64,000 nt of DNA from a virus: IMG/VR virus record IMGVR_UViG_3300030102_007483, positions 1-64,000 of that record; one strand, given 5' to 3'. The translations under genes were made by a program, and so were the position numbers. Position 1 is the stretch's first letter. Each line of letters begins with the position of its first letter. Positions 19,081 to 64,000 of the stretch are shown here, in pieces. The notes beneath the pieces were generated by a model that was not told the origin of the DNA, ran no database searches, and saw only the letters and a list, made by a program, of their open reading frames with translations.

Positions 19081-20865
19081 CTATGCTTCACCGCGAATCG
19101 GCGAACCGCCGCCGCCCGGTAACGCGTCTTCCATTAGTTCCTCCGCTCCCGGTATAGGTTGCCCCATTTGTTCCGCAAACTTAGCCGCCTCCTCAGGCGG
19201 TAAATTTCTTAGCATAGCCTCAACCTCTTTGGCTTGATTTGCGGCTAACTGTGGTGCGCCACCGGCAGCACCTCCAAGCTTGGATTGTGCTTCGAGTTGA
19301 GCCGCGATTTGTTGTTGCTCTGCGGCCTGTTGCTTCGCCTGAAGAATATCCTCTTCTGGGATGAGAATACGATTGGGAAGTCCCATGTTGGACAGTATTT
19401 CTTCTGTGAGACGTCGAACGTTTACGTTTTCGTTTTGAGACAAGAATGGCAACATTTGAATCAGCGTTTCTGCCATCATGCCGGGGTTGCGTCTGATGGG
19501 GTTGTAGCTGACAATCTCGAAGTCAACATCGACATCGACCAAATCTTTGTGGCTCAACTCTTGCCACTTTGTCGATCCTGCAATTCGTACAAGACGATTT
19601 GTTTTCATGTACTTCTTACACAGATAGAATGCCTTCTTGGCTACGTCCTCCAAGGCGTCGTTTAGATGACCCTCTCGCGTGGCAAGACGAGTTCTAAGTT
19701 GGGCGTCAATGATCGCCATTTCGGTGGCGGTACGAGCACCTGCAACCTGCCCTCGAGCCGCTTCTGCAAGTGCAGAAATGAATGCCGCATCTTCTTCTTG
19801 TCGAGCGATGAACTCTTTTACTCCGTTTGGTGCCGCAGGCACTGGCATCTCGTAAAATAGCGTAGCGAGACTCCGAAGTGCCTCACTGTTGGACGGGTTG
19901 ACACCGACAAACGATCCAGCAGAGGCTTCTACTGCCTTGTTGAGGTCTTCTTCAGTTACTCGACCAGAGTCATACATGACACGAGGTACCTGCAGATAGG
20001 TAATCTGCTTCATGTGTGTCAGAAGATCGTTGATAGTTTCTTGTTGTCGCAGAACCAATTGAACTTCGCTCATACCCAGACAGTCAATACCTGACTGGTT
20101 GAGTGAGAACATGCTGTAAGGGATGTAATCAATCTTATCTTCAAACACTACTGCGTCAGCTTGCTTGATGTAGTGCTGCATCAGGCCGCGCTCACGATCG
20201 TAGTATTCGTACACAGTCACCCATTTGAATGCGTCACGAACCTGATCGGTAGAACTCTTTACGTTTTCGTCCAAAAGCCACTTCGGGTATCGATCAGGCT
20301 TTACCTCTTTGATTAGCTCGGACTTGTATTGTCCTGACTTCACTCGAGCCTTGAACTCATCGAACGAAATGACGGTAGCTTCGATCCAGTATCGAATGTC
20401 GTCTGTGTCACGAACGGTAAGGTCAAAGAAAACACTTGATGGGTTTACCGCTCGAATGATCGGTATATCTTTTTTTGCGTCCCACCCAGTCTTGAAGATT
20501 CCTCTCTTGCACAACACAGCGTCAATCAAAGCGGTTGCTGCCTTGCGTCGAAACTTATTTGCGTCAAACACGTAATCAATGAGACCAGTCACGGAGGGGG
20601 CGGCGTCTTGAGACTTGGGCGTCCGTGCCATGGCTCCTACAGATGGATTCGGTCCCAACAAGGAACTGATAGCCGTATCTGCAATCGCGTAGATGATGTT
20701 CTTCGAGCACAAGAATGAATGTTGATTCATTCCCGAAAGGTCACTATCCGAGGTAGTAAAAAACTTGCCTCGATAAAACCTTCGAGCTTTGTCGAAGTCC
20801 TTCTTCTCTGAACGCTTGTAGTGGTCCAGATGACGATCAATAAGTTTTGAGAGTTTCATTGTCAT
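19081..20865 (-). CDS. Portal protein, 594 aa
   Basis: Size, position beside the terminase, and layout fit a portal: a helical N-terminal wing, an alpha/beta core with the strands around PIIRAVNPSSVFFDLTVRD and YIPYSMFSLNQSG, then a long helical clip/stem region (QQETINDLLTHMKQI) and a Gln/Ala-rich C-terminus. Twelve copies would form the DNA channel at one vertex and dock terminase and tail. ATG 20865 is followed by another ATG two codons later, and neither has a strong binding site. Confidence 0.8.
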   Translation of the reverse strand: MTMKLSKLIDRHLDHYKRSEKKDFDKARRFYRGKFFTTSDSDLSGMNQHSFLCSKNIIYAIADTAISSLLGPNPSVGAMARTPKSQDAAPSVTGLIDYVFDANKFRRKAATALIDAVLCKRGIFKTGWDAKKDIPIIRAVNPSSVFFDLTVRDTDDIRYWIEATVISFDEFKARVKSGQYKSELIKEVKPDRYPKWLLDENVKSSTDQVRDAFKWVTVYEYYDRERGLMQHYIKQADAVVFEDKIDYIPYSMFSLNQSGIDCLGMSEVQLVLRQQETINDLLTHMKQITYLQVPRVMYDSGRVTEEDLNKAVEASAGSFVGVNPSNSEALRSLATLFYEMPVPAAPNGVKEFIARQEEDAAFISALAEAARGQVAGARTATEMAIIDAQLRTRLATREGHLNDALEDVAKKAFYLCKKYMKTNRLVRIAGSTKWQELSHKDLVDVDVDFEIVSYNPIRRNPGMMAETLIQMLPFLSQNENVNVRRLTEEILSNMGLPNRILIPEEDILQAKQQAAEQQQIAAQLEAQSKLGGAAGGAPQLAANQAKEVEAMLRNLPPEEAAKFAEQMGQPIPGAEELMEDALPGGGGSPIRGEA

Positions 20866-38477: not shown

Positions 38478-41400
38478 GTGGCAGAAACTCAAAAGCAGAT
38501 GGAGGATCGTTTAGCTCGACTGAAAGCCAGCGACCCCGGCGATATGACGATTGATCTCGATGACGCTCCTGTGGGGGACAAGAAGCCTGCAAAGAAAGGC
38601 ACTGATGTTGACGAAAAGCCACCAACCGAAGATGACAAACTAGGTAAGTTTGAAAAATTCCCTGAGTTCGAGGAGATGGACATTGATCTCCTCACAAAAG
38701 ACCTTCAAATGAAACGGCTCGGTATTCGGATTGCGAGTGAGGCAGAATCGACAAAGCGAATAAATCCAAAGCTTGCGGCAGAAAAGAAAGAAAAAAACGA
38801 ACCTATTCTCGCGTCGGACGAAATCCTCAAAGCGCATGCAGAGCTTGCGGGATTTACTGTCGAAGATTTCAAAAAGGCTGCCGAGTTTCAGGAAGCACCA
38901 ATCCAAAATTTTTTCCGAGATATTGGAGATCAGGGTCGACCTGTCCAAGAAGTATTTGATGCCTACAAAACACAAGAAAGTCTGTGGTCAAAAACACAGC
39001 AACAACGAAAAGTGTTGGCTAGAGGTGAAAAGGTTCGAATCAAAGGTATCGAACGAGTGGTTACGGGGGAAAAGAAATTGTCCCCTGAAAAAAGAAAGGA
39101 GACACTTCAAGTTCTCCTAGCGGCTAAAGACCCCCGATTGAAGAGCCGAATTTTTACGGGTGACGCCGACAGCGGTGAGGCTGAAGATGCAATCGCCAAG
39201 CCGGGTCAGGCTGGGTACGACCGTCTCACGATGCAGGCGAACAAGCTCATCAATAAAGAACTCGCAGATGACAAGGAGCAGGCAGAGATTTATCAGAGTC
39301 ACATTGCGGCTCTGGGGCCACCAACGACGGGCGCGATGATTCGTAACACTCTTGGTGAACGAAAGTTTCAAGAGATGGTAAATCAGATCTCCACTCATAA
39401 GCTCAACAAAATGGCTAAACGCCAAGGTGTTCAGAGAGGTACAGAAGCATATGAGGAATTGAGAGCTAAATCCAATCGTGACGCTCTGTACGAGGCCGCA
39501 CTTCTAAGGACCGTGAATAAATACTATCTCCCCGGATTCGTGCAGTACGATCAGATTGACCCCGGAAACGTGCGTGGCGCGGAAGACACCAAGGATAAGT
39601 GGTGGATCACGCAAGCCATGAAAAACGCTGCGGATGTACGGATTGAGGTCGTCGGCTTGGACCCTAAGGGTATTCCTGTCTATCGACTTACATCGCCTAC
39701 ATGGCATATTTTTGAGATGGCGGATTCGGTTCAGGCAGGTATTGCGGGTGCCATTGAGCGATTGTCCGACGATGAGAGAGATGAGAGCATCTTGACTGCG
39801 ATTCGAGAAGGATCCCTTGATGGTATTCGTAATCGACGAGACTTCTTGAAGGCGGCGCTGTCGAGTGAGGCTGCTGAGAACGGTGGTCTGGCTTCGTTTG
39901 CTATGGGGTCTGCGGGGCTTGTTGCTGCCATCCTCACTCCTGATCTCTTTATGGGCGCTGCCGCAGTCGCACGAACAACAAAAAGGGTTGCGCAAATCGC
40001 GTCGGAAACTGCTGGGTTCCGTCGAGCCGCACCGGCATTGGTTGAATCTCTGGGAGATGGAGCGACAAGCTACGCTAAAACCGAAGATGTGCTGGAGGCA
40101 GCAGAGGCTGCTGTTGCTAGAGGCGATTATGACTCGGCACTACTGATACTCGAAGAAGCTAAAACTATAGCTAAAAAAGGCGACGAGGCCCTGTCCAAGG
40201 CCCGTGGTGAGAATGTTGAGATTGCACGAGAAGTAGATCGATTGGATGTCGACATCGCTGCTCGCATGGGCAAAAAGGTGCCGGAAAGCACGTTTGCAGA
40301 GGGTAAGAGAGTCGCGTCAAAGATACCCGGATCCTTCGGAGAAACAGCCCAGAATGTTCATATGGGCGCTCGACGGGTCATGTTGAGGGGCGAGTCACTC
40401 GATCAATTTACAGGATTTCCTGAGCTTCTGAGCTTCGAGAAGATGATCGATTCGTTGAAAGAAAGTGTCGACATTCTCAAGTCAGGCGACCTTAAAAACG
40501 CGTTCAATGCCAAACTTCGAGAGATGGTTGCAAACCCTTTTCGTAATGCCGTCGATGAACTTTTGACCGAAACAGGCGTAGGCGTAGGAGATATAAATCG
40601 GAGTGTTGGCCTTAGACAACAATCTTTGGATTTGATGACATTCTTAAACAGTACAAAGAGTACTAGAATTCTACGAGATGACCCGCAGTTGTATCGATCA
40701 GAGGTCATTCGCATCGCAAAGAAAATTGATTTCGATGACGCAGATAAAGAAAAGGCCTTCTTCAACGCGCTCGAAAAACGATTCCCAGACCTTTTAGACG
40801 AAGCTAATAATATTGGTAAAACACTGTCTAAAGTTTCCATCGCAGAGGCTCGTCAGGCCACATCGAGAGGGATTGCTGCAATTAGGGGGAATCTTGAGTC
40901 TCGCGCAGCCTCATCGGCGTTTATTCGCGAACGTGTGGCCGAACAGGCCAAGGTGGCGGCTGAACCTCTTTTGATAAAGCTAACGGATCGATATGCCGAA
41001 GTTGGTCGAGATCGACTCTCGCCTCAAGCTCTGCAGATTCAAGACGCTATTTTGGACATCTACCCAAACATAGACTCATCAGAAATACGAAAGTTTACTC
41101 GTATGATGGATCAAGAGGCGAAGAAGTTTGCAGATTCTAAAAAAGGTAGAACTGTTGCAGACTTCTACGCGGAGAGATTTGGTGGTATCAAGAAGGGACT
41201 AGACGACGTTGCCGATGAAGTAAAGCCGAAGGACGTTAAACCGGAGACACAGAAGGATCCCACGATTGATGAGGTTACTCCAAAGGATGTTGCTCCGGAA
41301 CCACAACCAGCACCACCAGCACGAGACCTTTTGGATGATGTTGAGGCCGGAAATATTTCTAAGTTGCCGAAGGGGCTTCAGGATGCTCTACGTGGAATTG

Positions 41401-44400
41401 CTAACGACGCGAAGAAAAGAGGCGGGTTTTCAGGACCAATTCAGGGTGTAAAACCTCAGCAGGTTTTGCCTGAGGTTGAAGACGCGTTCGCCGATTTGAT
41501 GAATGCTGATCGACGCACCCAAGAAGTAAGGCCAGCAATACACGTTTTAAAATCATCCTCGCCGGGTTTGAGTGCCCGTACTTTATATAATCACGTCTCT
41601 AAGATGACACGCATGGACGAAGTGTGTGATTTTTTAGCCCGTCATGCGGAGCTTGATTCCACCAGACTGTTGGCTCAAAAAATACTGCCGAACCTACGTC
41701 GTGATCCGGGACAGTTTCGTGTCATCAGCGGTAAAGTCGATGACGTCGACCTTAGTGTGCGAGACGCTCATGGATTGTATTTTCCTAACACCCATAGAAT
41801 ATTTATACGTGGCGCACAAAAACCGGCAAGATTGGGCGATGAAATTCCGATCGAGACGGGTCTGACCGAAGAAACTCTTATTCATGAGTTGCTTCATGCA
41901 GCGACGGCAGTGTTCATCCAAAAAAACCCGAACGCTAAAGTTGTTCGAGATTTAGATCAACTTATTTCCGAAGTTCGAACTGGTTTGGGTGATTTGATCA
42001 AACAGATGACTGATGCGGGGCGAGGCAATCAACTCGGCTCGGTTTCCTTCTACTCCAATAACTTTGACTCCTATGTTGGTTCTGCGGATGAGTTTCTTGT
42101 CCGCGCAATGACAGATCCAAAGTTCCAACGACTTTTGAAGCTAATTAAAGTAACGCCTAGATTAAGTATCTGGAATAAGTTTACGCGCGCTGTGGCATCT
42201 ATTTTTGGTATTCGCAAAGAAGATGAAACAACCGCTCTGTCACAGGCGTTGATTGCCAGTGAAAGAGTTATACAGAAGTCAGTAAAATTTGATCAACGAC
42301 CTGCGTCAGATGCTGAACCCATCGTTAAGGTTCTTCGCCCTACACAAGGCACACCCGGAGTCGATGTAGGTGAACAAGTGGGCATGATCGATGAGTTTAG
42401 TGGCTTACCACTGTATGCAGAAAATGCATTACCCGACAGAATTAAACCGGATGTTTTTATCACATCGCCCAAACTACGAAATCGCCCAGAAAATGGAATC
42501 ACTCTGCAGACAGACAATCTTAGCGACCTTATTTCTCTGCGTGATTCGTTTACAGAAACATTTTCTGGTGTTCGAATTCCTAGATCAGATTCGGAGCAAG
42601 TTGTTCGTGTTTCAAACAGCTTCATTGACGTTGGTTTGAGGGGTAGAGGATTCGGCACCGACCTTTATCTGAGGGCATTGAAGTACGCACAAAATGAGGG
42701 AGTCGGTTTTGTAAGTGATGTCAGCCCAACGGGCGAAGCTCTTCGGGTTTATGCGAAATTGCGTTCGATGGGAGTTGGGTTTCGTCGATTACCCGTTCGT
42801 CTTGCAGACGGTAGTTTAGGGGAGGCCTCGTACATAGACGCTGTGTCTCTGGCTAAAGTTGATCTGGATGATCTGGCGGTAACTCATGGTCTGCAAAATC
42901 GCTCAAGTATGTTTGGTCCATATGATAGTTTCGAAACGATTCCATCGAAGGTCCTGTACTCAAAACTAGCCGACACATCGGATCCTTTGGTTGTTGAATT
43001 TTTGGAGAACGGGCAAGCAATCATTCGCGCTATTGGTGAGACTGCGAGTGTTGATGATTTTATTCGTGTTCTTGGTCGAATCTCACGCAGAGATCTTGAT
43101 GAAAAGGGCATGAATATTGTTACGGATTGGCTCAAAACTAGAGGTATTAATGTCGGTTTTCAGGGTGCAAAGTTTACATCTGCTAACCCTGCTGACATTG
43201 AAAGGGCTGAGTCTGAGTTTGCGTCCGCCTTTGCTGCCTACGTTGACTCTGGTAGGGCAACGGACCCCGAACTTGTAAAGCCTTTCAACACAGTTCGTGA
43301 GTGGGTTTCAGGTAAATATACTGCTCTTAGGAGTGCTGAAGCCGATGGAGCACCGTTTGAAATCGACGATCGTCTGACACTTCAACTCGACAAGATGATG
43401 CGGGTCCCTTCAAAGCGTGTCGGCATGCCGAACATCGTAGGCATGCTCAAAGACGCACTCATCAAACCAGATTTGGGTGGGACATCAGTTGATGTTTTGG
43501 AGGAGATTGCTCGAGAAAGTTTCCGCTTGGGTACACCGATCAAAAAGAAAGACCTTCAAGAGCAGTTTACCAAGGCCTTGAAAGCGTACAACGCGGGCCG
43601 TAAAGAAGAGGCCGTCATAAGGTTACCGGGCCCCGTATCTATACGTGGGTGGAACGCTAGTTCAAGCACTGGCGCTAAAGAGTTTACCCTCGATGAGCTT
43701 GCCGACATACAACAAAGCTTGGAAACTGCAAAGCGTTTGGAGCTTCAGGAGGCCAGAAAGCTTGGTATGCCGACTGCGGCACGAGCAATTGAAGAGAAGA
43801 ATCCATCAGAGTTGGTCGATCAGTGGGTCACACAGAACCCAGTACAGGGCGCGTTCCGGTTCATGTATTTGGGTGGTGACGCGTTCGCAGATATGAGGCT
43901 GCTGCCTCCAGTCGTCCGTGATGCAATCATGGCCGGTACCCGAGCAGTGCAGCAAGCCATCGGTGATGCGATTACTCTGGTTGCAGAAAAAGACATTGCT
44001 AAGTTGACCCAACTTTTGACTGGTGCTCCGAATGTTCAGTTTACAAAAGGTGGTCGATCAGCAATCAGTGCTGGCCACGATCACATGGCGGCTGTTTCAT
44101 TAAACTTAGGGCGGTACTTCGCATCCGTGAATCAAACGAACTTGGGCATTGTACGAAACTTTGTTCAAAGAGTAAGAGTGTTGGACTCCACTGCGAAGGC
44201 AGCAGCAGAACTAAGTGCGGAAGAATTGGGCAAGGTATCCGAAATCGTTAATGATCTGATATCTGGAGATAAGGCTTCACGTTTTGTCACTGAGGTTTTC
44301 AAAGCGGCTGGATTTACGGGTAGTCGCATCGAGCCAAAGTTCTTTACGGAACCAGCTACAGGCCTTGATCCCGGCGGTCTGCTTGAAATATTGATGTATT

Positions 44401-47021
44401 ACAGCAACGTATCCGGTCGTGTTGATCCTTCGATGACGACTCAAGATGGTCGACAAGTGTTTGCTTTCTTCAACGAATCTATGAAGAACCGTGGTGCTCA
44501 GCGTGTGACATCGCAGAACATGTTTACAGGTCTTTACGCAGACATCAACGCAAAGTTTACAGACGACCCCACAGTAGCTAACCGGGTTGCGGTGTTGATT
44601 GCTGGGCATGGTCAAGCTCACGCGGCGAAAAAACGTTGGGTCGACCTTGGAGTGGCGGCGGACGAAGATCTGGCAAGATCAATGCGCCAATACATCGTCG
44701 GTGAGTCTATCGATCCCGATGATGTCGTTCGAGTCAAAAACGCTTTCGACTCTCTTGGTTACAACCCCAACATGGTCGAGGGATACGCTTTGGACGGCGT
44801 AACTATGTTTATACCCAGAGCCGGTAGAGAGCGTTTGAATATGGTTCTCGCTCAAGCTCAGGATCCTTCGCTGCTCAAAACAGACAATATGGATACTATT
44901 TCTGCCTTGAATGAAATCTCATCGGCGGGAGAAAGAATCATTACTGGTGCCGGTACAAACAGCACTACGGCACTTAGTTTCGCACTTTTTTACCGATACC
45001 TGAAAACACGAATGGTTCGTGGTCACTTTGTTCTTAAGTCTCGATATTTTTGGATGAACACATTTGATCACTTCAATCAAACGGCTCAACGCGCCGGGTT
45101 TAGAACTGCCGCGATATCAACGACTCGTATGTTCACGCAGAATGTCCTTTCAAACCCAATAGGTCAGGCGTTTGTTTTTGCGGCAAGAAGAACGGGTAAG
45201 GGAGATGCCGCAGAGGCTGCGCGTCGGGTTCTGCAAGAAGGTGGGGACAAAGCTGCCGAGTGGGCGGGTAAACTGACTCGCGGGTCAAAATGGCACATCA
45301 AACTCAATCCAATATTGGAGGGTGCGGAAGGCATCGTAATGATTGCCGGAAAGCCCTACAGGAACACAGATATTAGGCAAGCGGCTCTTGAAGCAGGTAT
45401 TTTTGCCTCATTCGACACCAGTCAGTTGGGTACAAAAATTCAAAATGTCGGGAACCTTTTTCTTCAGACTGAGGCGAAGAAGGGTCGACTGACAAAACTT
45501 GGAACAGATATCCTCGACGACGTGAAGGGAGCATCGGAAGACATCGCAGAAGCGTGGGCCGAACGAGAGCGACTCGGATGCATGATTACCCTGATGGAAG
45601 CGGGTATCGACCCGAGAACTGCCGCAAAGATAAGCATCGAGGCACTGTACGATTACGCAGGAAGCATGTCGAAAGGTGATCGAAACTTTTTGCTGAACAT
45701 ATTCTTCCCATTCTGGGCCTTCCAGAAAAACGCAAACCGACAAATTTTCGACGCGATGTTCAGTCCCGAAGGCGCTTACAGGCTCGGTGTCATGCGTAGA
45801 GCCTATGACAAGGGCAGTGAATACCTTAGTTATCTTACCTATGGTGCAATGGTCGACGAGAACGGTATTGCCGTCGACTCTTTGCCCCCAGAACTACGAA
45901 GCACATATTTTGCTTTCAAAAAGCAAATGCAAGACCTGTATGGTGAGAACGGAAAAATTCCAGCACCTATACAAGAGGAAATACGATTGTTTGTCGCGCA
46001 GTCCATGATCAAGACAACCGGCGGTAAAGTCATGCAAGGGTCTGTGTACTACGACGATTTTATCGATATTGCTGCGTCGATCAAGGGTGAGGATGGTAAA
46101 TCTGTGGGCTTAGATCGAAGAGCACTCGCTTCGTACTACATGCCTATTCCTGATAGGTCCGGACTGCAGACCTACTTTAGAGATCGCATTTCATTCCCTC
46201 TGCCCTACGCGCCAGAGAAGTTCGGTGAAACGCCTGTAAACTACGCTCCTCCCGAAGATTTTCAGAACACAACTAAAGCTTGGAATGATCTGTATCGACA
46301 GAAGAGAGCCGACGCTCCTTACATGGCTTTCTTTATGCCTGAACCCACTTATGTTGCAGCGTTCAATCACTTCTCGTACTTGATGGCAACTAAGATCCTC
46401 ATGATGCAAAAAATGGAGGACATGGGTGACCGTTGGTTTACGGACGAAGACGATGGTTCCGATGCCATCACACCACTTGCTGCAGTCAACGCGCTGCTGA
46501 GCCCCGCTCGTGCGCCGGTCCTTTCCGACGTTCAAGCAAGTTTAGGTACGGGTGGAGCGACGATTCCGAAAAGAATTGCCCAAGACCTTGTTCATTTTTT
46601 CGACTATCACCTGATTGATTTGCTTGAGTTAGATGAGTCCGAAGATATTTTTGATATTCAACTGCAACAACAACGGGATGAGGCCGAGGGTCGAGAGCCT
46701 CGGGATCTGCCGATAAAACCTATTGATGCAGCTATTGTGCCGACAAAACGATACTACATGATGCCCGGCGTAGCACAAATGTTGTTTATCAATAGTCCGC
46801 TTGGAGAGTTGAACGACATCCTCCTGAAGGCAGAAAAGACTCCGATGGAAAAAGCATCCGGCATAAGAGGTGACGTTCAAAAGTGGTTGAGAGTGTTCAC
46901 GGGTCTGGATCAAAGAGAAATTATCAGAGACAGGACGGTGATGTCAGAAAAGTTCCGGGCCGAAGATCAAACGTCTGACGTCACAAAGGAAAGGGCCAGA
47001 GAAAAAACTCAACTAGATTGA
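38478..47021 (+). CDS. Giant polyvalent virion protein with zincin and GNAT-like motifs, 2847 aa
   Basis: A GTG-started frame of 8.5 kb, the largest here. The visible parts, in order, are: acidic, disordered N-terminus (1-100); helical region; hydrophobic segment near 470-500 (ASFAMGSAGLVAAILTPDLF); coiled helices to about 950; H1136-E-x-x-H1140 in an E-T-L-I-H-E-L-L-H-A-A context, typical of zinc metallopeptidases; a GNAT acetyltransferase-like motif RGRGFGT near 1388-1394 followed by a conserved-looking A-L-R-V-Y-A-K-L; a helical rest; and an aromatic C-terminal domain (NIFFPFWAFQKNANRQIFDA, near 2410). Giant multi-domain proteins like this travel in the virion and enter the host. No RNA-polymerase motifs were seen. 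Confidence 0.75.
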   Translation: MAETQKQMEDRLARLKASDPGDMTIDLDDAPVGDKKPAKKGTDVDEKPPTEDDKLGKFEKFPEFEEMDIDLLTKDLQMKRLGIRIASEAESTKRINPKLAAEKKEKNEPILASDEILKAHAELAGFTVEDFKKAAEFQEAPIQNFFRDIGDQGRPVQEVFDAYKTQESLWSKTQQQRKVLARGEKVRIKGIERVVTGEKKLSPEKRKETLQVLLAAKDPRLKSRIFTGDADSGEAEDAIAKPGQAGYDRLTMQANKLINKELADDKEQAEIYQSHIAALGPPTTGAMIRNTLGERKFQEMVNQISTHKLNKMAKRQGVQRGTEAYEELRAKSNRDALYEAALLRTVNKYYLPGFVQYDQIDPGNVRGAEDTKDKWWITQAMKNAADVRIEVVGLDPKGIPVYRLTSPTWHIFEMADSVQAGIAGAIERLSDDERDESILTAIREGSLDGIRNRRDFLKAALSSEAAENGGLASFAMGSAGLVAAILTPDLFMGAAAVARTTKRVAQIASETAGFRRAAPALVESLGDGATSYAKTEDVLEAAEAAVARGDYDSALLILEEAKTIAKKGDEALSKARGENVEIAREVDRLDVDIAARMGKKVPESTFAEGKRVASKIPGSFGETAQNVHMGARRVMLRGESLDQFTGFPELLSFEKMIDSLKESVDILKSGDLKNAFNAKLREMVANPFRNAVDELLTETGVGVGDINRSVGLRQQSLDLMTFLNSTKSTRILRDDPQLYRSEVIRIAKKIDFDDADKEKAFFNALEKRFPDLLDEANNIGKTLSKVSIAEARQATSRGIAAIRGNLESRAASSAFIRERVAEQAKVAAEPLLIKLTDRYAEVGRDRLSPQALQIQDAILDIYPNIDSSEIRKFTRMMDQEAKKFADSKKGRTVADFYAERFGGIKKGLDDVADEVKPKDVKPETQKDPTIDEVTPKDVAPEPQPAPPARDLLDDVEAGNISKLPKGLQDALRGIANDAKKRGGFSGPIQGVKPQQVLPEVEDAFADLMNADRRTQEVRPAIHVLKSSSPGLSARTLYNHVSKMTRMDEVCDFLARHAELDSTRLLAQKILPNLRRDPGQFRVISGKVDDVDLSVRDAHGLYFPNTHRIFIRGAQKPARLGDEIPIETGLTEETLIHELLHAATAVFIQKNPNAKVVRDLDQLISEVRTGLGDLIKQMTDAGRGNQLGSVSFYSNNFDSYVGSADEFLVRAMTDPKFQRLLKLIKVTPRLSIWNKFTRAVASIFGIRKEDETTALSQALIASERVIQKSVKFDQRPASDAEPIVKVLRPTQGTPGVDVGEQVGMIDEFSGLPLYAENALPDRIKPDVFITSPKLRNRPENGITLQTDNLSDLISLRDSFTETFSGVRIPRSDSEQVVRVSNSFIDVGLRGRGFGTDLYLRALKYAQNEGVGFVSDVSPTGEALRVYAKLRSMGVGFRRLPVRLADGSLGEASYIDAVSLAKVDLDDLAVTHGLQNRSSMFGPYDSFETIPSKVLYSKLADTSDPLVVEFLENGQAIIRAIGETASVDDFIRVLGRISRRDLDEKGMNIVTDWLKTRGINVGFQGAKFTSANPADIERAESEFASAFAAYVDSGRATDPELVKPFNTVREWVSGKYTALRSAEADGAPFEIDDRLTLQLDKMMRVPSKRVGMPNIVGMLKDALIKPDLGGTSVDVLEEIARESFRLGTPIKKKDLQEQFTKALKAYNAGRKEEAVIRLPGPVSIRGWNASSSTGAKEFTLDELADIQQSLETAKRLELQEARKLGMPTAARAIEEKNPSELVDQWVTQNPVQGAFRFMYLGGDAFADMRLLPPVVRDAIMAGTRAVQQAIGDAITLVAEKDIAKLTQLLTGAPNVQFTKGGRSAISAGHDHMAAVSLNLGRYFASVNQTNLGIVRNFVQRVRVLDSTAKAAAELSAEELGKVSEIVNDLISGDKASRFVTEVFKAAGFTGSRIEPKFFTEPATGLDPGGLLEILMYYSNVSGRVDPSMTTQDGRQVFAFFNESMKNRGAQRVTSQNMFTGLYADINAKFTDDPTVANRVAVLIAGHGQAHAAKKRWVDLGVAADEDLARSMRQYIVGESIDPDDVVRVKNAFDSLGYNPNMVEGYALDGVTMFIPRAGRERLNMVLAQAQDPSLLKTDNMDTISALNEISSAGERIITGAGTNSTTALSFALFYRYLKTRMVRGHFVLKSRYFWMNTFDHFNQTAQRAGFRTAAISTTRMFTQNVLSNPIGQAFVFAARRTGKGDAAEAARRVLQEGGDKAAEWAGKLTRGSKWHIKLNPILEGAEGIVMIAGKPYRNTDIRQAALEAGIFASFDTSQLGTKIQNVGNLFLQTEAKKGRLTKLGTDILDDVKGASEDIAEAWAERERLGCMITLMEAGIDPRTAAKISIEALYDYAGSMSKGDRNFLLNIFFPFWAFQKNANRQIFDAMFSPEGAYRLGVMRRAYDKGSEYLSYLTYGAMVDENGIAVDSLPPELRSTYFAFKKQMQDLYGENGKIPAPIQEEIRLFVAQSMIKTTGGKVMQGSVYYDDFIDIAASIKGEDGKSVGLDRRALASYYMPIPDRSGLQTYFRDRISFPLPYAPEKFGETPVNYAPPEDFQNTTKAWNDLYRQKRADAPYMAFFMPEPTYVAAFNHFSYLMATKILMMQKMEDMGDRWFTDEDDGSDAITPLAAVNALLSPARAPVLSDVQASLGTGGATIPKRIAQDLVHFFDYHLIDLLELDESEDIFDIQLQQQRDEAEGREPRDLPIKPIDAAIVPTKRYYMMPGVAQMLFINSPLGELNDILLKAEKTPMEKASGIRGDVQKWLRVFTGLDQREIIRDRTVMSEKFRAEDQTSDVTKERAREKTQLD

Positions 47022-56702: not shown

Positions 56703-58652
56703 ATGATTCAACAGCCTCACATAAGCTACATGATAGCCAACCCCGATAATCCTGATTTTTTGGAGCGCATCGAATCGTTGGTTCCGGGGTCACTTGTCTA
56801 CGGTCGGGCATCAGGTGCTTACCGGCGAAGCAGGCTAAAAAACTGTGATCCGGATACTAAAAATAACTTGTCTATCTGTGAGATTTACGCACCTATCCAC
56901 TGTGCTTGGCTGGTAGAAAGAATCTTGTGTCACAACAAGTTGAGTTTCTCTTCGATCGCTACATCGTATTCGGACAGGGTGATCACGGCTTGGTCAAACG
57001 AACCGATGAGGCGAGACTCTTTGGAGCGTCAAGGCAGATCGAGTTGCCGCAGATCTGTAGTTCGAGGTGAGCTTCGTCGAGACGTGCTAGACATCGCGAC
57101 ACCATATCAGTTTATGGGTGTTGAATGGTGTCGAACAAGACCTTGGGCAATGAACGTTTGGTCTTGCGGCTCGGGTAAAACACTGGGCGCTATCATGTCG
57201 GCTCTCTGTAGGAGCGAGTCAAAGGAGTCCGTTCTTGTCGTGTGCCCTGCAAAAGCCCGCCATGTTTGGTGGAGTCAGGTACAGGAGTATACTCACATCA
57301 AACCATTTAGAGTGAAACCTGCGTCGGAGAAAAGGAAGTCAGATCAGTCGTTCGACGAATACATGCGAGAGTGCAACATATTGAACGCCTACAACAAGGT
57401 GCCGTTTGTAATTGTTGGTGCTGAGTCTTTGCCTGACAACATGGATTTGATTCGAAAATTAGAACCTAAGATTCTTATTCTAGATGAGATACATACTCAT
57501 GGTAGTCGGAAGAGATGGACTGCAATTCATCAAGCCGATGGGTCTGTGTCCTTCAAACGAAAGAAGACTGCGGCAAGCAACAGAGCGAATTCAAAGGTAG
57601 ACCGGGAGAATCGCGCGGTTGCTGCAATGGATCTTAGTCGGATGAAGAGTTTGAATCTTCGTATAGGTTTGACAGCTACTCCATTGGATGACGGTCGTCC
57701 AAGAAGATTGTGGTCGCAGCTTGATCTGTTGTCACCGGGTGGATTTTCTCACAGCTACTCTAATTTTGCGCATCGATACTGTTCTGCGAGACCGGGTCAG
57801 TTTGGTGGTTTAGACGATACCGGCAGTAGCAACCTCGAAGAGTTGAAAGCTCGATGCTCCTTTTTTGTCCATGAGGTACCGTACTCGGAATCTCATGCAT
57901 CACTACCTGATACTCGAGTTCAGGTCATGTATTTGAGTTCTTCGGAACTGAATCGTGCGGAGAGGTGGAGTGAAGATCAAACGTTTGGTCAAGCAACAAA
58001 GGATTTTGTACGAGAAGCAAAAACAAATCCTCTTGCCCGTGAGCGGGTTGTAGAGGCCCGTCTTTCAGAAGCGTGCAGTCGGAAACGTAAGTACGTGGTG
58101 GGTGAAGCCATCGAAGGTCTGAAGGGAGGGGGTAAGGTCGTCATCTTTACCGCTCGGAGGCGCGAGACAGAGCTTTGGGAGTATGATCTGCGTCGTGCTT
58201 TGAAGAAGGGTGATGAGGCCTTAGGCGAGGTCCCAGTTTGGATGGCACACGGGGGTGTGTCTGAGACTGAGAGAGATCAGATGATCGATGCCTTTAGGGA
58301 AGCCGATGGTCCATGTTGTCTAATCGCAACTGGCCAAAGTGTCGGTACAGGTGTCGACGGCATGCAGACTGCGGATCTCGCCATTTTTGCCATGCTTCCG
58401 TGGAAGCCCGGAGATTTTGTGCAATGGAAGGGTCGGTTTGATCGACTTGGGGGAAGCCCAACCTTGCTCAAAGTAGTCGTCGCGCAGGGCACCTATGACG
58501 AAAGAGTCGTAGAGATACTTGTTGAGAAGTTTGGTCCTATCGAATCATTTTTAAAGGCCGATGAACTCGATGGTCTGGGGCAGAAGCTTCTGGGAATGGA
58601 GAACGAAGAGGCACTTGTGAGCAGCATCATCAGCAAACTGGAGGTTGTGTAA
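56703..58652 (+). CDS. SNF2/DExH-type helicase, 649 aa
   Basis: Superfamily 2 motifs are visible in order: Walker A with G-S-G-K-T near 155-159, DEIH at 261-264, motif III-like GLTATPLDD near 323, helicase C-terminal half with VVIFTARRRETELWEYDLRR, and motif VI Q574-x-x-G-R578-x-x-R581. It would use ATP to move on or remodel DNA, likely as the replication or recombination helicase. A 140-residue N-terminal region of unknown type precedes the ATPase core. Possible leaderless message. Coupled by TAATG to the 57-residue gene. Confidence 0.82.
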   Translation: MIQQPHISYMIANPDNPDFLERIESLVPGSLVYGRASGAYRRSRLKNCDPDTKNNLSICEIYAPIHCAWLVERILCHNKLSFSSIATSYSDRVITAWSNEPMRRDSLERQGRSSCRRSVVRGELRRDVLDIATPYQFMGVEWCRTRPWAMNVWSCGSGKTLGAIMSALCRSESKESVLVVCPAKARHVWWSQVQEYTHIKPFRVKPASEKRKSDQSFDEYMRECNILNAYNKVPFVIVGAESLPDNMDLIRKLEPKILILDEIHTHGSRKRWTAIHQADGSVSFKRKKTAASNRANSKVDRENRAVAAMDLSRMKSLNLRIGLTATPLDDGRPRRLWSQLDLLSPGGFSHSYSNFAHRYCSARPGQFGGLDDTGSSNLEELKARCSFFVHEVPYSESHASLPDTRVQVMYLSSSELNRAERWSEDQTFGQATKDFVREAKTNPLARERVVEARLSEACSRKRKYVVGEAIEGLKGGGKVVIFTARRRETELWEYDLRRALKKGDEALGEVPVWMAHGGVSETERDQMIDAFREADGPCCLIATGQSVGTGVDGMQTADLAIFAMLPWKPGDFVQWKGRFDRLGGSPTLLKVVVAQGTYDERVVEILVEKFGPIESFLKADELDGLGQKLLGMENEEALVSSIISKLEVV

Positions 58653-58825
58653 TGGACTTGAGCGATGAACGATTGCATCGAAGGCGGGTACCGTGGAAAG
58701 CTTTGACGAGAGAGGGGTACGAGCCGCGAAAGGTGATGCTCGAAGCCCAGAAACTCGGAATGTGGAAGCTTGCGACAAGCGCCAAACAAAGAATCGACAA
58801 TGAGAAACGAGTTGTCAATAAATGA
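58652..58825 (+). CDS. Small basic protein, 57 aa
   Basis: ATG 58652 overlaps the helicase stop (TAATG), and the stop TGA 58823-58825 overlaps the nuclease ATG at 58822 (ATGA). Both overlaps make this a convincing gene despite its size. The product starts MDLSDERLHRRRVPWKALTR and is basic and helical. It may be a nuclease or helicase accessory. No family recognised. Confidence 0.65.
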   Translation: MDLSDERLHRRRVPWKALTREGYEPRKVMLEAQKLGMWKLATSAKQRIDNEKRVVNK

Positions 58826-59808
58826 ATAAGATACTGATCGACGCGGGGAGAAGTAGTCGCGGGTGGTCACGGATAGGATCATTCTTCCGTTGCCCCCAAC
58901 TTTTTGCCTATCAAAACAGACTGAATATGAGTTTGATTCCTGCGAGCGCATTGACGCGTGGGAGTATGGGTCATGTGATCCAAGCGCATCAGCATGCAAT
59001 CTGGGGCGCTCGGACTGCATCTGGTGTTTGGGTGGACGAAACATGGTACGACGACCCCACTGTTTTTCTCGATCCTGAAGATGCCGTACACCTTTGGTGC
59101 GATACCAACGGTGGGCATGAGCATCTTGATCGAATGGTCGAAACGTTTCATCAATATATGAGTCAGTACCCCGAGTGTCCCGGCGATGTGATTGCTGTAG
59201 AATATCCAATTACTGCAGTGTTGGGAACAAAGGATAATGAATGGGGATTGTGGGTTGTTCACAAAGATGATCAACATTTCGATCGTCGGGTGGCATATGT
59301 AAAAGCATTCGATGGCGGGAAGATCATACCTGCCCCCCTGAACTGTCCGGGTCACCCAGACTGCGGATCAGCTATCGTTTTGACTAGACGTCTCGATATG
59401 GTCATCAAAGACAGCTCTGGTCGGATATTTATATGGGATCACAAGCATCAGGCGAGGGTCGCTGTGAACGGAAGTGTTGATGGCTACGCCGCAGATGGTG
59501 GCTTTGCTGCCTTTAGAATCATGGGTAAACAACTTTACGGTAATGATTTCGGAGGGATTGCTCTCAACCTTATTCAAACCCAGCAGCCATGGAAGGTAGC
59601 AAGACCTCTTGTTCCTTCGACACCTCACAGAGATAAGCATTTTGCCGACATGCTATGGAGAGCAGAGCATCAACTGGCGAGGCTCGATTTGGAGCTACCT
59701 GAGTTCTGGAACTGGCCAAAAGTACAGCACGAGACTGCATGCGTCGGTAGATACGGTGCATGTGCCGGAATCAAAATGTGTTTCCATGGCGAAGCGGCCA
59801 CAATCTGA
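58822..59808 (+). CDS. PD-(D/E)XK nuclease with Fe-S cluster (Cas4/RecB-like), 328 aa
   Basis: The RecB-type nuclease core shows D192 in R-L-D-M-V-I followed by D206-H-K208, the second half of the PD-(D/E)XK active site. Cys24 (FFRCPQ) near the N-terminus with C307, C314 and C320 near the C-terminus is the arrangement that holds a 4Fe-4S cluster in Cas4- and AddB-type nucleases. It would degrade or trim DNA ends as an exonuclease in replication or recombination. It sits between the helicase and a RecA-fold ATPase. Confidence 0.78.
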   Translation: MNKILIDAGRSSRGWSRIGSFFRCPQLFAYQNRLNMSLIPASALTRGSMGHVIQAHQHAIWGARTASGVWVDETWYDDPTVFLDPEDAVHLWCDTNGGHEHLDRMVETFHQYMSQYPECPGDVIAVEYPITAVLGTKDNEWGLWVVHKDDQHFDRRVAYVKAFDGGKIIPAPLNCPGHPDCGSAIVLTRRLDMVIKDSSGRIFIWDHKHQARVAVNGSVDGYAADGGFAAFRIMGKQLYGNDFGGIALNLIQTQQPWKVARPLVPSTPHRDKHFADMLWRAEHQLARLDLELPEFWNWPKVQHETACVGRYGACAGIKMCFHGEAATI

Positions 59809-59871: not shown

Positions 59872-60849
59872 ATGACCAGTGCAGAACTGCCTACCGTAAT
59901 GATTACGGTTTACGGCAAACCAAAACAAAAGAAAACCAGTGACGCATTAGCGGCATTTCCTACCGCTCTTTTTTGTGGAGTTCCATCTGCAATTACACTT
60001 GTCGCACAGAATGAGTTGGGATTTACGCCTACGGTTCATCCGGATTCACCCAAGAACTTAAATGAGCTTGTGGGAATGTTGAGAATGATGGCCACTGATG
60101 GATCAGCAAAACCTTACGGTGCTGTTGTTGTAGATGATCTGAGTCATCTTTGTCAGAGGTCGATGCTTGAGTGGACCGAATCGGCACCTTCAGGTCGTAG
60201 CGGGAAAAAAGATCGGTTCTATCCATATCAGCAGTTGAATCAAATGCTGCTTGAGATTGCTCACATTTCGAGGCACTTGGGCGTTCACTTACTCATGAAC
60301 TTCCATGAACGGACTCCCGGCACAAATGCTGAAGGTCGTTTTTGTCCGGGCGGCCCAGATGTGCCATCGCGTAATCAGATCGAAACACTGCCATCATGGT
60401 GTGACATAAACGTTCGGGCGATGGTTGATCCAAATTACCCGGATCCTTGGTTCCCCAGTATTTATTATTGCGACCCGACAGACCCCGATTGGGTGACTGG
60501 AGACAGAACTGGAGTATGCACTAAGAAGACTCCCGGTAACATTCGAGAGATTTTGCGGGCAAGCGAGAGCAACTATCACCTTGCTCGGTTGCCGGGTCTT
60601 GAATGGCAGGATGAGGTTGCTCAATCCGTAGCAGACGATATGGTAGGTGGTGCCGCAGTTCAGGATGCAATCCAGTCTGCGGTGTCAGGTCGGACTGACA
60701 ACCCTCTACACCTCAGATGGGCGTGCCAAGATGGCATCGCTCGTGGTGTCTTGTTGCAGCAGGCGAAAACGTCACTGTTTGATTTCGAGATCAAAGAAAC
60801 CAAGACAGCAAACTCTCCGTCTATGCCACCTCCACCACCTAACAAATAG
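59872..60849 (+). CDS. RecA-fold ATPase with degenerate Walker A (Sak4-like), 325 aa
   Basis: GGAG precedes ATG 59872. A strand ends in V-Y-G15-K-P-K-Q-K20-K21-T22, a P-loop in which the usual second Gly is Lys. A Walker B strand A-V-V-V-D88-D89 follows. The size and layout match RecA/Sak4-type annealing or recombinase ATPases of phages. It would load on DNA and promote strand annealing. Whether it still hydrolyses ATP is open because of the P-loop change. The C-terminus is Pro-rich. Confidence 0.6.
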   Translation: MTSAELPTVMITVYGKPKQKKTSDALAAFPTALFCGVPSAITLVAQNELGFTPTVHPDSPKNLNELVGMLRMMATDGSAKPYGAVVVDDLSHLCQRSMLEWTESAPSGRSGKKDRFYPYQQLNQMLLEIAHISRHLGVHLLMNFHERTPGTNAEGRFCPGGPDVPSRNQIETLPSWCDINVRAMVDPNYPDPWFPSIYYCDPTDPDWVTGDRTGVCTKKTPGNIREILRASESNYHLARLPGLEWQDEVAQSVADDMVGGAAVQDAIQSAVSGRTDNPLHLRWACQDGIARGVLLQQAKTSLFDFEIKETKTANSPSMPPPPPNK

Positions 60850-60896: not shown

Positions 60897-61493
60897 ATGG
60901 GCATCAAAATTTCTGGTAACGCATTTCAAGGTATTAGTTCGTTGGGATCTGCCGTCCCTAACGCGGGCTTTTATCCTGTCTCAATCGTACGTATTGAGAC
61001 TGGAGCAAACGACAAACCCGGAACTCGGAGGTTTCACGTCCAGTTCGATAATGGGTTCAAGATGTTTACGTTTGTGAGCCTGCCATACGACAACAGCGGC
61101 AACCTACTGCCGGGCCTCAGTGACAAGCAGGTACGTGGTCGAATGGCCGCTCTTCGAACTATTCTCGAGTCTCTTGGTTACACAAAAGAAAATATCGAGA
61201 CTGCAGATGAGATCAATGATGCATGGTTCTTGGGAACTATGAACAATGGTCGAGTAGCATACGTTGAGTTTGAGCCGGGTCAGAAAGGAGTTGCAGGGTC
61301 ATACAACGAGATCAAACGATTCCTTACTAAAGAACAATTCGAAGCTTTGAGTGAAGTAAGCAACGAAAAACCTGTAGAGACCGTGGATCAGAAACAAGCC
61401 GCGCCCGAACCGACAACTAATGGTGCCCCAGTACCTCCGTCTGGAGTGTCTTTGCCGCCGCCTGTTAGTGCTGCCCAGAACATCGTGGGCTGA
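60897..61493 (+). CDS. Possible ssDNA-binding (DUF669-like) protein, 198 aa
   Basis: The first 130 residues look beta-rich, with strands around GFYPVSIVRIETGANDKPG and FHVQFDNGFKMFTFVSLPYD, as in an OB-like fold, then a Pro/Ala/Gln-rich tail from about 160. Proteins of this kind follow RecA-fold ATPases in many phage cassettes and are annotated DUF669 or ssDNA-binding. I cannot confirm the family. AAAAGGAG precedes the start. Confidence 0.5.
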   Translation: MGIKISGNAFQGISSLGSAVPNAGFYPVSIVRIETGANDKPGTRRFHVQFDNGFKMFTFVSLPYDNSGNLLPGLSDKQVRGRMAALRTILESLGYTKENIETADEINDAWFLGTMNNGRVAYVEFEPGQKGVAGSYNEIKRFLTKEQFEALSEVSNEKPVETVDQKQAAPEPTTNGAPVPPSGVSLPPPVSAAQNIVG

Positions 61494-61496
61494 TTA

Positions 61497-64000
61497 GTGG
61501 CATCCTTCAACCCCAAAGAATGTGGCGCGCGGTGTGACGTCTGTCCGTTGGGGCCAGAAGGACCACTTCATAAAGATGAGTGGCGGCCTGTGGGTGGTGA
61601 GTTCCATCGACAGGCTGCCATCATCGCTGTAGCTGAATCCCCCGGAGCAGATGAGGTTCAGCACGGGAGACCTTTAGTTGGTCGAGCAGGTACAGAGTGG
61701 GCGAACGCTCTGGTGCAGGCTGGAAAAGGTAGAGTGGACGTCGACTTGGATCACGTCATCTCATGCAAGCCGCCGGGACAAGACTCTGGGTCGTGGCGTC
61801 GTATGGAAAAGGCACTCGACAGACTCAACAGAAGACGACTGAAGAATGGTGATGATCCTCTGCCTCACCCAGTCGAATGTTGTCGGCCTCGCCTTATGAG
61901 TGTGGTCGAGAAGTATGAAAACATTATTACCTTAGGTAAAACTGCAACGTCAGTATTGACGGGTCAATCAAGCAGCATCCAAAGTTTGCGAGGTGGCCCG
62001 ATGCAGATTGACGACGACTTTGATTGGGTGTCCGATCGTGGGACGAGAAAAATTATGCCCATGCTGCACCCGTCGTTTATTTTAAGGTCACCGAGTTGGA
62101 GGCATGTATTGCACTCTGACGTGGCCAAAGCATTTAGGTGGTTCGACAATTGTTTGCGCTGGACATCGCCAGATAGTCTGATCAACCCATCGCCTGATGA
62201 ACTTGCTGACTGGTTGTCCCAAAGCGCGCCGTTCTGGGCTTACGACGTTGAGACAGACGGGATCGAACCCTTAGAGTGCAATCTGCGAACAATCGCGATT
62301 GCTATCCCTGACATGGATGAAACGGGTAAAGCTGCTCGGTCAAACGTGTATCAAAATGCGAAGGCCGTAGGTGTCGGTCTGCTGTCGGTTGATGGTCGCA
62401 CACGAATCTACAACCCTGAAGATGAGAGAAAGATTTTGGATCTTCTCCGTCAGGCATTTACAGACGGACGAGTATGGGTTGGTCACAACGCAGGATACTA
62501 CGACAGGATGGTGGTCGAGACTCAACTCGGAGTCACACCCTACCCGCTTGTGGACACTCTTTTTCATGCACGTTTTAGGGCCCCAGATCTGCCGAAAGGG
62601 TTGAAGACAATTGGTTCAATACTGACCGATGTCGAGCGTTGGGAAACAACAGAAAAGGGAACACACATATCGACCGGTAGTCAGGATGACGATGAGCTAC
62701 TGCGATACAACATCGTTGATTCTACAGTCAACGCACGGATCGTTGTGCCCTTGATGGACGCTTCTGCTGCTGCTGGAGCATTCGAAAGCATATCACCAGA
62801 CATCAAACCTTCTGGTTGGTCAATCGCTCGACCGTGGAATCTAAATGAAATCGACCATGCCACACAAGAGATGTGTGTTGGAATGCACAAGTCGGGTGTT
62901 TGGGTCGATCAAAAGCTTCGTTCATTGTTGGAAGCGGAGTATGATGTATCAGTACGAAAACGCTACAAGAACCTGCAGTCACTGGCTCAGTGCGTTGGGT
63001 TGTCTAAATTGGACTCAGACTCGGTGAACGAGTTGAACCCCGGTAGCGCCGATCAAATTCGTAATCTGCTCTATGAGCGTTGGGGCTTGGGTATACCTGC
63101 ATCAATGGATGCGCGGGAGTTCTACACCGAGACGGGCGCTCCGGGTACTGGTGACGCGGTGCTGAGGGCGCATCTTGCCTCAGGTCGATTGACGGAAGAT
63201 CAAGAATCATTTGTTCGTGAGTTGAGACTGTATCGGAGGGAGAAAAACAAAATCTTGGGAACCGTTTTGATTCCACTGCGCAGACGCGATCAAGACTCTA
63301 AAAAAGGATTGGTCCATGAAGATGGTCGTGTCCGATCAACATGGAATGCTCACGTAACAAGTGTGGGCCGACTGAGTAGTAGCGGACCAAACTTACAGAA
63401 TATCGGTAACCGAAAAGGTCAGGGAAGACTGAAAAAGATTTTTGCCGCTCCTCCCGGACGAATACTTGTTGGAGCCGATCTCGATCAAGCGCACCTGAGA
63501 ATCACGGCTTGTTATTGGCAAATACCCCGTTTGCTTGAATGCTTTGCAACTGGAAAGGATCCCCACAATCTTCTTGCTTACGACGTTTTTGGTAAAGACT
63601 TTAAGAATGCAAGCGGATGGGGTCCGGATGGTTTCAGCTTGAACCGCAAGCCTACAGGCGGTGAAGCAAAAGCTATGCGCGATGTAATGAAGACCTTTCG
63701 GTACGCGTCAATCTATTGGGCAGACCCTACGACTGTATGGCAGGTACTGACTAGCACAGAGACAGATGATGGTCGTATGCCATACCTGAAGTTCGAGACG
63801 AGGGAAGTAAGGCATTTCCACAACAAGTGGCTCGAGGCAGAGCCTGAGTGGGAGGTGGCGTGGAAGAACATGCTGCAGCTTTATGAGAAGCAGGGCCATA
63901 TGTTTGAGCCGGTGTTCGGTCGCAGGTCAGGGCCACTGTCAGACGGTAAAAAGAATGAGGTCGTAAACTTCCCAATCCTCGCGGCAGAATCGTCGATTAT
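61497..64000 (+). CDS. Uracil-DNA glycosylase-like / DEDDy exonuclease / DNA polymerase A fusion, C-terminus cut by window
   Basis: GTG start three bases after the upstream stop; 834 codons visible. Residues 1-210 match a family-4-type uracil-DNA glycosylase: C13-x2-C16, C90 and C128/C129 as iron-sulphur ligands, E47-S-P-G-A-D-E, V-G-R-A-G, S-C-K-P-P-G and H191-P-S. Residues 245-410 are a proofreading exonuclease: D250-x-E252, D336 and Y404-x3-D408. Residues 420 on are polymerase A: motif A D661-L-D-Q-A-H666-L-R, motif B R728-x3-K732-x3-Y736. Motif C lies beyond 64000. The N-terminal glycosylase-like module recalls the phage SPO1 polymerase. Main replicative polymerase of this phage. Confidence 0.85.
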   Translation, partial: MASFNPKECGARCDVCPLGPEGPLHKDEWRPVGGEFHRQAAIIAVAESPGADEVQHGRPLVGRAGTEWANALVQAGKGRVDVDLDHVISCKPPGQDSGSWRRMEKALDRLNRRRLKNGDDPLPHPVECCRPRLMSVVEKYENIITLGKTATSVLTGQSSSIQSLRGGPMQIDDDFDWVSDRGTRKIMPMLHPSFILRSPSWRHVLHSDVAKAFRWFDNCLRWTSPDSLINPSPDELADWLSQSAPFWAYDVETDGIEPLECNLRTIAIAIPDMDETGKAARSNVYQNAKAVGVGLLSVDGRTRIYNPEDERKILDLLRQAFTDGRVWVGHNAGYYDRMVVETQLGVTPYPLVDTLFHARFRAPDLPKGLKTIGSILTDVERWETTEKGTHISTGSQDDDELLRYNIVDSTVNARIVVPLMDASAAAGAFESISPDIKPSGWSIARPWNLNEIDHATQEMCVGMHKSGVWVDQKLRSLLEAEYDVSVRKRYKNLQSLAQCVGLSKLDSDSVNELNPGSADQIRNLLYERWGLGIPASMDAREFYTETGAPGTGDAVLRAHLASGRLTEDQESFVRELRLYRREKNKILGTVLIPLRRRDQDSKKGLVHEDGRVRSTWNAHVTSVGRLSSSGPNLQNIGNRKGQGRLKKIFAAPPGRILVGADLDQAHLRITACYWQIPRLLECFATGKDPHNLLAYDVFGKDFKNASGWGPDGFSLNRKPTGGEAKAMRDVMKTFRYASIYWADPTTVWQVLTSTETDDGRMPYLKFETREVRHFHNKWLEAEPEWEVAWKNMLQLYEKQGHMFEPVFGRRSGPLSDGKKNEVVNFPILAAESSI

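Follow-up and report, generated by a model that had tools for sequence, protein, structure and literature searches.

In a large phage family, the uracil-DNA glycosylase (UDG) domain fused to predicted family A DNA polymerases has an intact set of iron-sulfur (Fe-S) ligands together with a repeatedly altered uracil pocket, a combination for which we found no description in the literature searched. Because the scaffold and the Fe-S ligands are frozen and the uracil pocket has been replaced many times, uracil excision is probably not the function that such a domain retains, at least in one large family of phages. For the polymerase studied here, we favor, with moderate confidence, a reading in which the UDG part, without catalyzing excision, serves the replicative polymerase as a DNA-binding or architectural module, with its Fe-S cluster kept.

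One open frame encodes a UDG fold, an exonuclease and a polymerase

The window analyzed here is the whole stretch from position 1 to 64,000 of record IMGVR_UViG_3300030102_007483; the full virus record is 71,672 bp. The polymerase gene begins with a GTG at 61497 on the + strand, three bases past the stop codon of the upstream gene, and continues past the end of the window. An earlier note, made from the window, had placed a UDG-like domain in frame with an exonuclease and a polymerase and had called for the gene to be extracted beyond 64000. In the full record, the gene reaches its stop at 64277 as a single 926-aa frame with no internal stop and no frameshift between the two halves, and about 90 relatives carry the same fusion, which bears the claim out. 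The gene and its domains are:

61497..64000 (to 64277 in the full record), + strand: UDG-exonuclease-polymerase A gene, open frame
61497..62141, + strand: N-terminal family-4-type UDG fold, residues 1-215 (profile, phmmer and fold matches)
62199..62786, + strand: 3'-5' exonuclease domain, residues about 235-430 (weak PF01612 match, E=0.0018, below cut-off; invariant catalytic residues)
63009..64000 (ends at 64277), + strand: family A polymerase domain, from residue about 505 (PF00476, PolA, E=1.7e-25)

An assembly chimera or frameshift is ruled out, since a 100% identical copy of the gene is present on another IMG/VR contig and all relatives whose gene is not truncated at a contig end or broken by a frameshift have the three domains in one gene in the same order.

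Residues 1-215 belong to the UDG superfamily and have a family-4-type fold. PF03167 (Pfam) matches residues 36-201 (E=2e-10), the NCBIfam type-4 UDG model NF040953 matches with E=2.7e-19, under its curated cut-off, and phmmer matches the T. maritima UDG TM0511 (E=1.9e-17). Residues 1-224 were modeled with AlphaFold2 at a pLDDT of 92, and the top Foldseek match of this model in the PDB is TM0511 (E=9e-15); the top fold matches are the T. maritima and T. thermophilus UDGs and M. smegmatis UdgX. Thus, the type-4 profile search and the structure model, both proposed in the earlier note, identify the N-terminus as a UDG fold. The full-length model (pLDDT 77, pTM 0.67) is too weak to position the UDG domain on DNA.

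Judging by its catalytic residues, the remainder of the protein is a predicted family A DNA polymerase with a 3'-5' exonuclease. The exonuclease residues D250/E252, N331/D336 and Y404/D408 are intact, and D250, E252, D336, Y404 and D408 are invariant across the relatives, as are the polymerase motif A/B/C residues D661, R728, K732, Y736, Y740 and D863. Three further observations concern these domains. H666 (window 63492-63494) occupies, in motif A, the place of the steric-gate Glu710 in E. coli Pol I; this column is His in 84/84 family members having it, and Glu or Asp wherever motif A was seen in another fused UDG polymerase. Motif C reads HDS, not HDE, in L002 (7481-7489, residues 862-864), likewise in several other phage polymerases. 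In the polymerase of the relative L060 (6001-9948), an insertion of 371 aa, which matches a LAGLIDADG endonuclease (PF03161, E=4.9e-6), sits precisely within the exonuclease motif HN/AGYYD and has a Cys at each junction; it is an apparent intein.

Fe-S ligands are kept and uracil-pocket residues are replaced

Positions were mapped by the contiguous motifs GRPFVG, NxxKC and HPS, with a TM0511 alignment and the UdgX papers (PMC10359453, PMC10776899). UdgX E52, F65, N91, K94 and H178 correspond to E47, L60, H86, S89 and H191 of the polymerase, respectively. The residues of interest are:

61533..61544, + strand: Fe-S cysteines C13 and C16 (CxxC), 88/88 relatives
61764..61766, + strand: Fe-S cysteine C90, 88/88
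61881..61883, + strand: Fe-S cysteine C129, 88/88
61635..61637, + strand: E47, motif 1 Glu, kept; Glu in 86/88
61674..61676, + strand: L60, at the uracil-stacking Phe position; Phe in 3/88, and in 28/29 cellular family-4 UDGs
61752..61754, + strand: H86, at the uracil-contacting Asn position; H 42, N 40, other 6 of 88
61761..61763, + strand: S89, at the Asn-supporting Lys position; Lys in 0/88, and in 22/28 cellular UDGs
62067..62069, + strand: H191, motif 2 His, kept here; H 65, S 19, A 3, Q 1 of 88

C13, C16, C90 and C129 are the putative ligands of a 4Fe-4S cluster. The earlier note had reported a near-complete family-4 signature. Its Fe-S cysteines, E47 and H191 are present, and C9 and C128 are extra cysteines. 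The label "near-complete" does not hold, because two residues that serve as criteria for family 4, the uracil-contacting Asn and the stacking Phe/Tyr, are replaced by H86 and L60, and the supporting Lys is replaced by S89. Motif 1, GE(A/G)PG, reads AESPG, so that Glu, Pro and the last Gly are kept and the first Gly and the A/G position are changed. Motif 2, HP(S/A), is present as H191-P192-S193 and is lost in some relatives. UdgX-type cross-linking was considered and rejected: the polymerase lacks the KRRIH loop, with its nucleophilic His, and GEQPG, and has C90-KPPGQ and AESPG.

In UdgX, the F65A, N91A, K94A and H178A mutants are all inactive; N91A and H178A stay folded, and F65A and K94A do not (PMC10776899). 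Three of these four positions are replaced in the polymerase, which makes ordinary uracil excision by its UDG domain unlikely, with the qualification that the mutant data are for alanine substitutions in a homologue and the polymerase has His, Leu and Ser. L60 alone would be no proof of lost activity, because F65A unfolded UdgX.

Conservation across the phage family

Two IMG/VR scans returned about 90 relatives. The Fe-S cysteines are invariant (88/88 family members), and Glu, Gly, Asn and His are all kept together in only 18/88 relatives, each of which carries an aliphatic residue in place of the stacking Phe. To count changes independently of the UDG domain, a tree of 59 members plus the distant relative L158 was built from the exonuclease and polymerase only. 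On this tree, position 86 changed at least 13 times, which is the 66th percentile of UDG sites and therefore more changeable than the median UDG site. G50, which varies within the family, changed 11-12 times, and position 191 switched between His and non-His at least 4 times; one clade has lost the motif 2 His and kept the Asn. On the same tree, 0 changes were counted at the four Fe-S cysteines and at those catalytic residues of the exonuclease and polymerase that were checked.

Median omega was 0.26 for the UDG domain, 0.24 for the exonuclease and 0.18 for the polymerase. The UDG domain of the family is under purifying selection, and its omega and invariant cysteines rule out decaying junk.

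As a control, we used 30 family-4 UDGs from cellular genomes of the same phylum as the metagenome-assembled genome (MAG) that contains L158. In these, the pocket residues are nearly constant (Asn 29/29, Phe 28/29, His 28/28), and Fe-S cysteines are lost in several, with Trp at C90 in 6. The phage family and the cellular UDGs thus show opposite patterns, with fixed cluster ligands and a variable pocket in the former and the reverse in the latter, a contrast that may be somewhat overstated because the 30 control loci are top-scoring and lean canonical.

A putative non-catalytic module of the replicative polymerase

The gene product would be the phage's replicative polymerase, in which an Fe-S UDG fold precedes a proofreading exonuclease and a family A polymerase. 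We suggest that the UDG fold was still an active enzyme when it joined the polymerase, which is the likely ancestral state and the one pictured by the canonical pocket of L158, and that it was then kept for a role needing the fold and the Fe-S ligands and not uracil recognition. The module probably holds or guides DNA near the polymerase and may thereby aid processivity, as vaccinia D4 does without catalysis. D4 is a UDG protein that is required for replication although its catalytic site is not, and it is a polymerase processivity factor independent of catalysis (PMC2630940, PMC1936997, PMC4450493). For the present polymerase, we infer Fe-S binding, the loss of excision and the DNA-holding role. 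Against this reading, E47 and H191, two catalytic contacts, are kept, and the 18/88 relatives described above have Glu, Gly, Asn and His intact.

A bolder extension can be offered tentatively, although we think it rather unlikely: phage family A polymerases would repeatedly have converted a fused Fe-S UDG to non-catalytic use in replication, in convergence with poxvirus D4, and in this family the 4Fe-4S cluster rather than the base pocket would be under selection, possibly for redox-responsive control of DNA binding.

Position 86 invites a different explanation, since it is nearly always occupied by His or Asn, a pattern more like functional alternation than free drift. This near-exclusive pair leaves room for altered base specificity: the domain could be an active glycosylase in which the H86 pocket takes another base (cytosine, or a deaminated or host-made modified base), with the fused polymerase refilling the site. 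That Glu and His are kept in the polymerase, that His or Asn in 82/88 suggests constraint, and that mutation of the equivalent residue in MUG shifts specificity (PMC10776899) are all in its favor. However, the stacking Phe is missing in 85/88, one clade lacks the motif 2 His yet keeps the Asn, and removing bases in front of a polymerase during replication would leave the template with abasic sites. Moreover, each of 16 virus records (this one and 15 relatives of 65-76 kb, possibly incomplete) has a single, fused UDG domain and no second UDG, and no base-excision-repair family was matched among the Pfam-scanned ORFs of the present record. We therefore consider altered specificity unlikely.

We are more doubtful that the domain is an ordinary active UDG coupled to replication, which would clear uracil from phage DNA. 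Good family-4 matches, the presence of E47 and H191, and canonical residues in the syntenic distant relative L158 and in Thermus phage phiLo would all fit such an enzyme, but the pocket Asn, Phe and Lys are all replaced here, and N91A, K94A and F65A each inactivate UdgX (PMC10776899).

The earlier note had also raised uracil sensing in the template. Stalling at template uracil is known from archaeal family B polymerases, and a read-ahead sensor of this type would bind uracil or another base in its pocket without cutting and so stall the polymerase. The fusion to an exonuclease and polymerase, and a fold presumably built to flip bases, are compatible with a sensor; uracil recognition needs the Asn and a stacking aromatic, however, and the full-length model gives no place of the UDG domain on the template. 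Because the uracil-binding Asn and the stacking Phe have given way to other residues here, and vary or are missing across the family, sensing by a canonical pocket is very unlikely.

Genome context and the question of modified DNA

The polymerase lies in a replication module with the order helicase, PD-(D/E)XK nuclease, Sak4-like protein, 198-aa protein, polymerase, 147-aa protein, SbcC-like ATPase and DUF927/primase-helicase. The genes upstream of the polymerase are:

56703..58652, + strand: SNF2/DEAD-type helicase, start of the replication module
58822..59808, + strand: PD-(D/E)XK exonuclease, weak match
59872..60849, + strand: AAA / Sak4-like annealing protein
60897..61493, + strand: 198-aa protein with no family match, immediately before the polymerase gene; L158 has a protein of similar size in this place

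Elsewhere in the window, the structural region contains a 2847-aa open reading frame (38478-47021), and a P22/SU10-like portal protein (19081-20865, minus strand) suggests a podovirus-like virion.

The suggestion of modified or uracil-bearing DNA is not supported, because none of the 16 virus records, which may be incomplete, has a dUTPase or a thymidylate-synthase/hydroxymethylase-type gene; a Pfam scan of the 71 ORFs of the present record also found no deaminase, nucleotide kinase or other base-making gene. Uracil- or hydroxymethyluracil (hmU)-type phage DNA to which the UDG domain is tied is thus extremely improbable, even though the hmU phage SPO1 carries both a UDG-like domain and a gene for a dUMP hydroxymethylase, and ctfzr933 (L133, 1-1425), which has a canonical fused UDG, has genes annotated as "pyrimidine hmase synthase" (pyrimidine hydroxymethylase) and thymidylate synthase near its polymerase. 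UDG-like polymerase domains should not be taken as evidence for modified or uracil DNA.

Comparison with known fused UDG polymerases

The UDG-exonuclease-PolA architecture itself is already known from SPO1, the PaBG/"Lupandier" phages and Thermus phage phiLo. The earlier note had pointed out that the SPO1 polymerase has a glycosylase-like N-terminus, and a Pfam match in gp31 (E=3.4e-22), on PolA, agrees with this. SPO1 is a weak guide for the present polymerase, however, since gp31 carries none of the Fe-S cysteines and a Ser stands in for the Asn. In Pseudomonas phage PaBG / Lupandier DNA polymerase I, the same domain order was described in 2020 and the domain was read as a repair activity (PMC7412058); unlike the domain studied here, it has no Fe-S cysteines and no recognizable E, N or H.

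The phiLo DNA polymerase I (AYJ74010), whose structure has been solved (PDB 9qhs), also has a four-Cys N-terminal UDG followed by an exonuclease and PolA. It differs in its canonical E, F, N, H pocket, found also in its relatives L166 and L167, and in its length of 1175 aa, and its polymerase part is only distantly related. L158, a 57-kb phage contig in a "Proteobacteria" MAG, is about 30% identical over residues 5-926 and has similar neighbors by eye from translations (helicase, nuclease-like, AAA-like, small protein, polymerase, SbcC-like ATPase), but its pocket is the canonical E, F, N, H.

Canonical residues are also present in the fused UDGs of Rctr197k, ctLwi270 and ctfzr933; a search with the Rctr197k polymerase returned distant polymerase matches only. 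MelJY34 keeps the catalytic residues and has His at the third Fe-S Cys. L156 and L157, relatives of ctfzr933, have lost the Asn, and L157 also lacks the cluster ligands and the His. In the Youna2 UDG four Cys are kept, but Glu and Asn have become Asp and Tyr, and Cozz has only an apparent UDG remnant with no Pfam match. From these sequences, pocket loss in fused UDGs has probably occurred in more than one event. Two annotations are split: the Youna2 polymerase (L203, 2201-5470) is annotated as two PolA genes about 680 bases apart, and the UDG-exonuclease and polymerase parts of ctLwi270 (L132, 1727-4364) are annotated as two genes.

Among free-standing enzymes, UdgX and the family-4 UDGs (TM0511 and T. 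thermophilus UDG) are the best sequence and fold matches and share the Fe-S ligand positions, but their N, F, K, H pocket is intact. Vaccinia D4 serves as an analogy only: it belongs to another UDG family, is a separate protein bridged by A20 to the polymerase E9, and is catalytically active. Further phage polymerases gave fold matches to the UDG domain, among them those of Bacillus, Enterococcus, Rhizobium, Erwinia and Achromobacter phages. UDG-like domains are thus widespread on phage family A polymerases. The pattern in the family studied here raises the question of what service a glycosylase fold gives to a replicative polymerase, and why the putative Fe-S cluster is kept.
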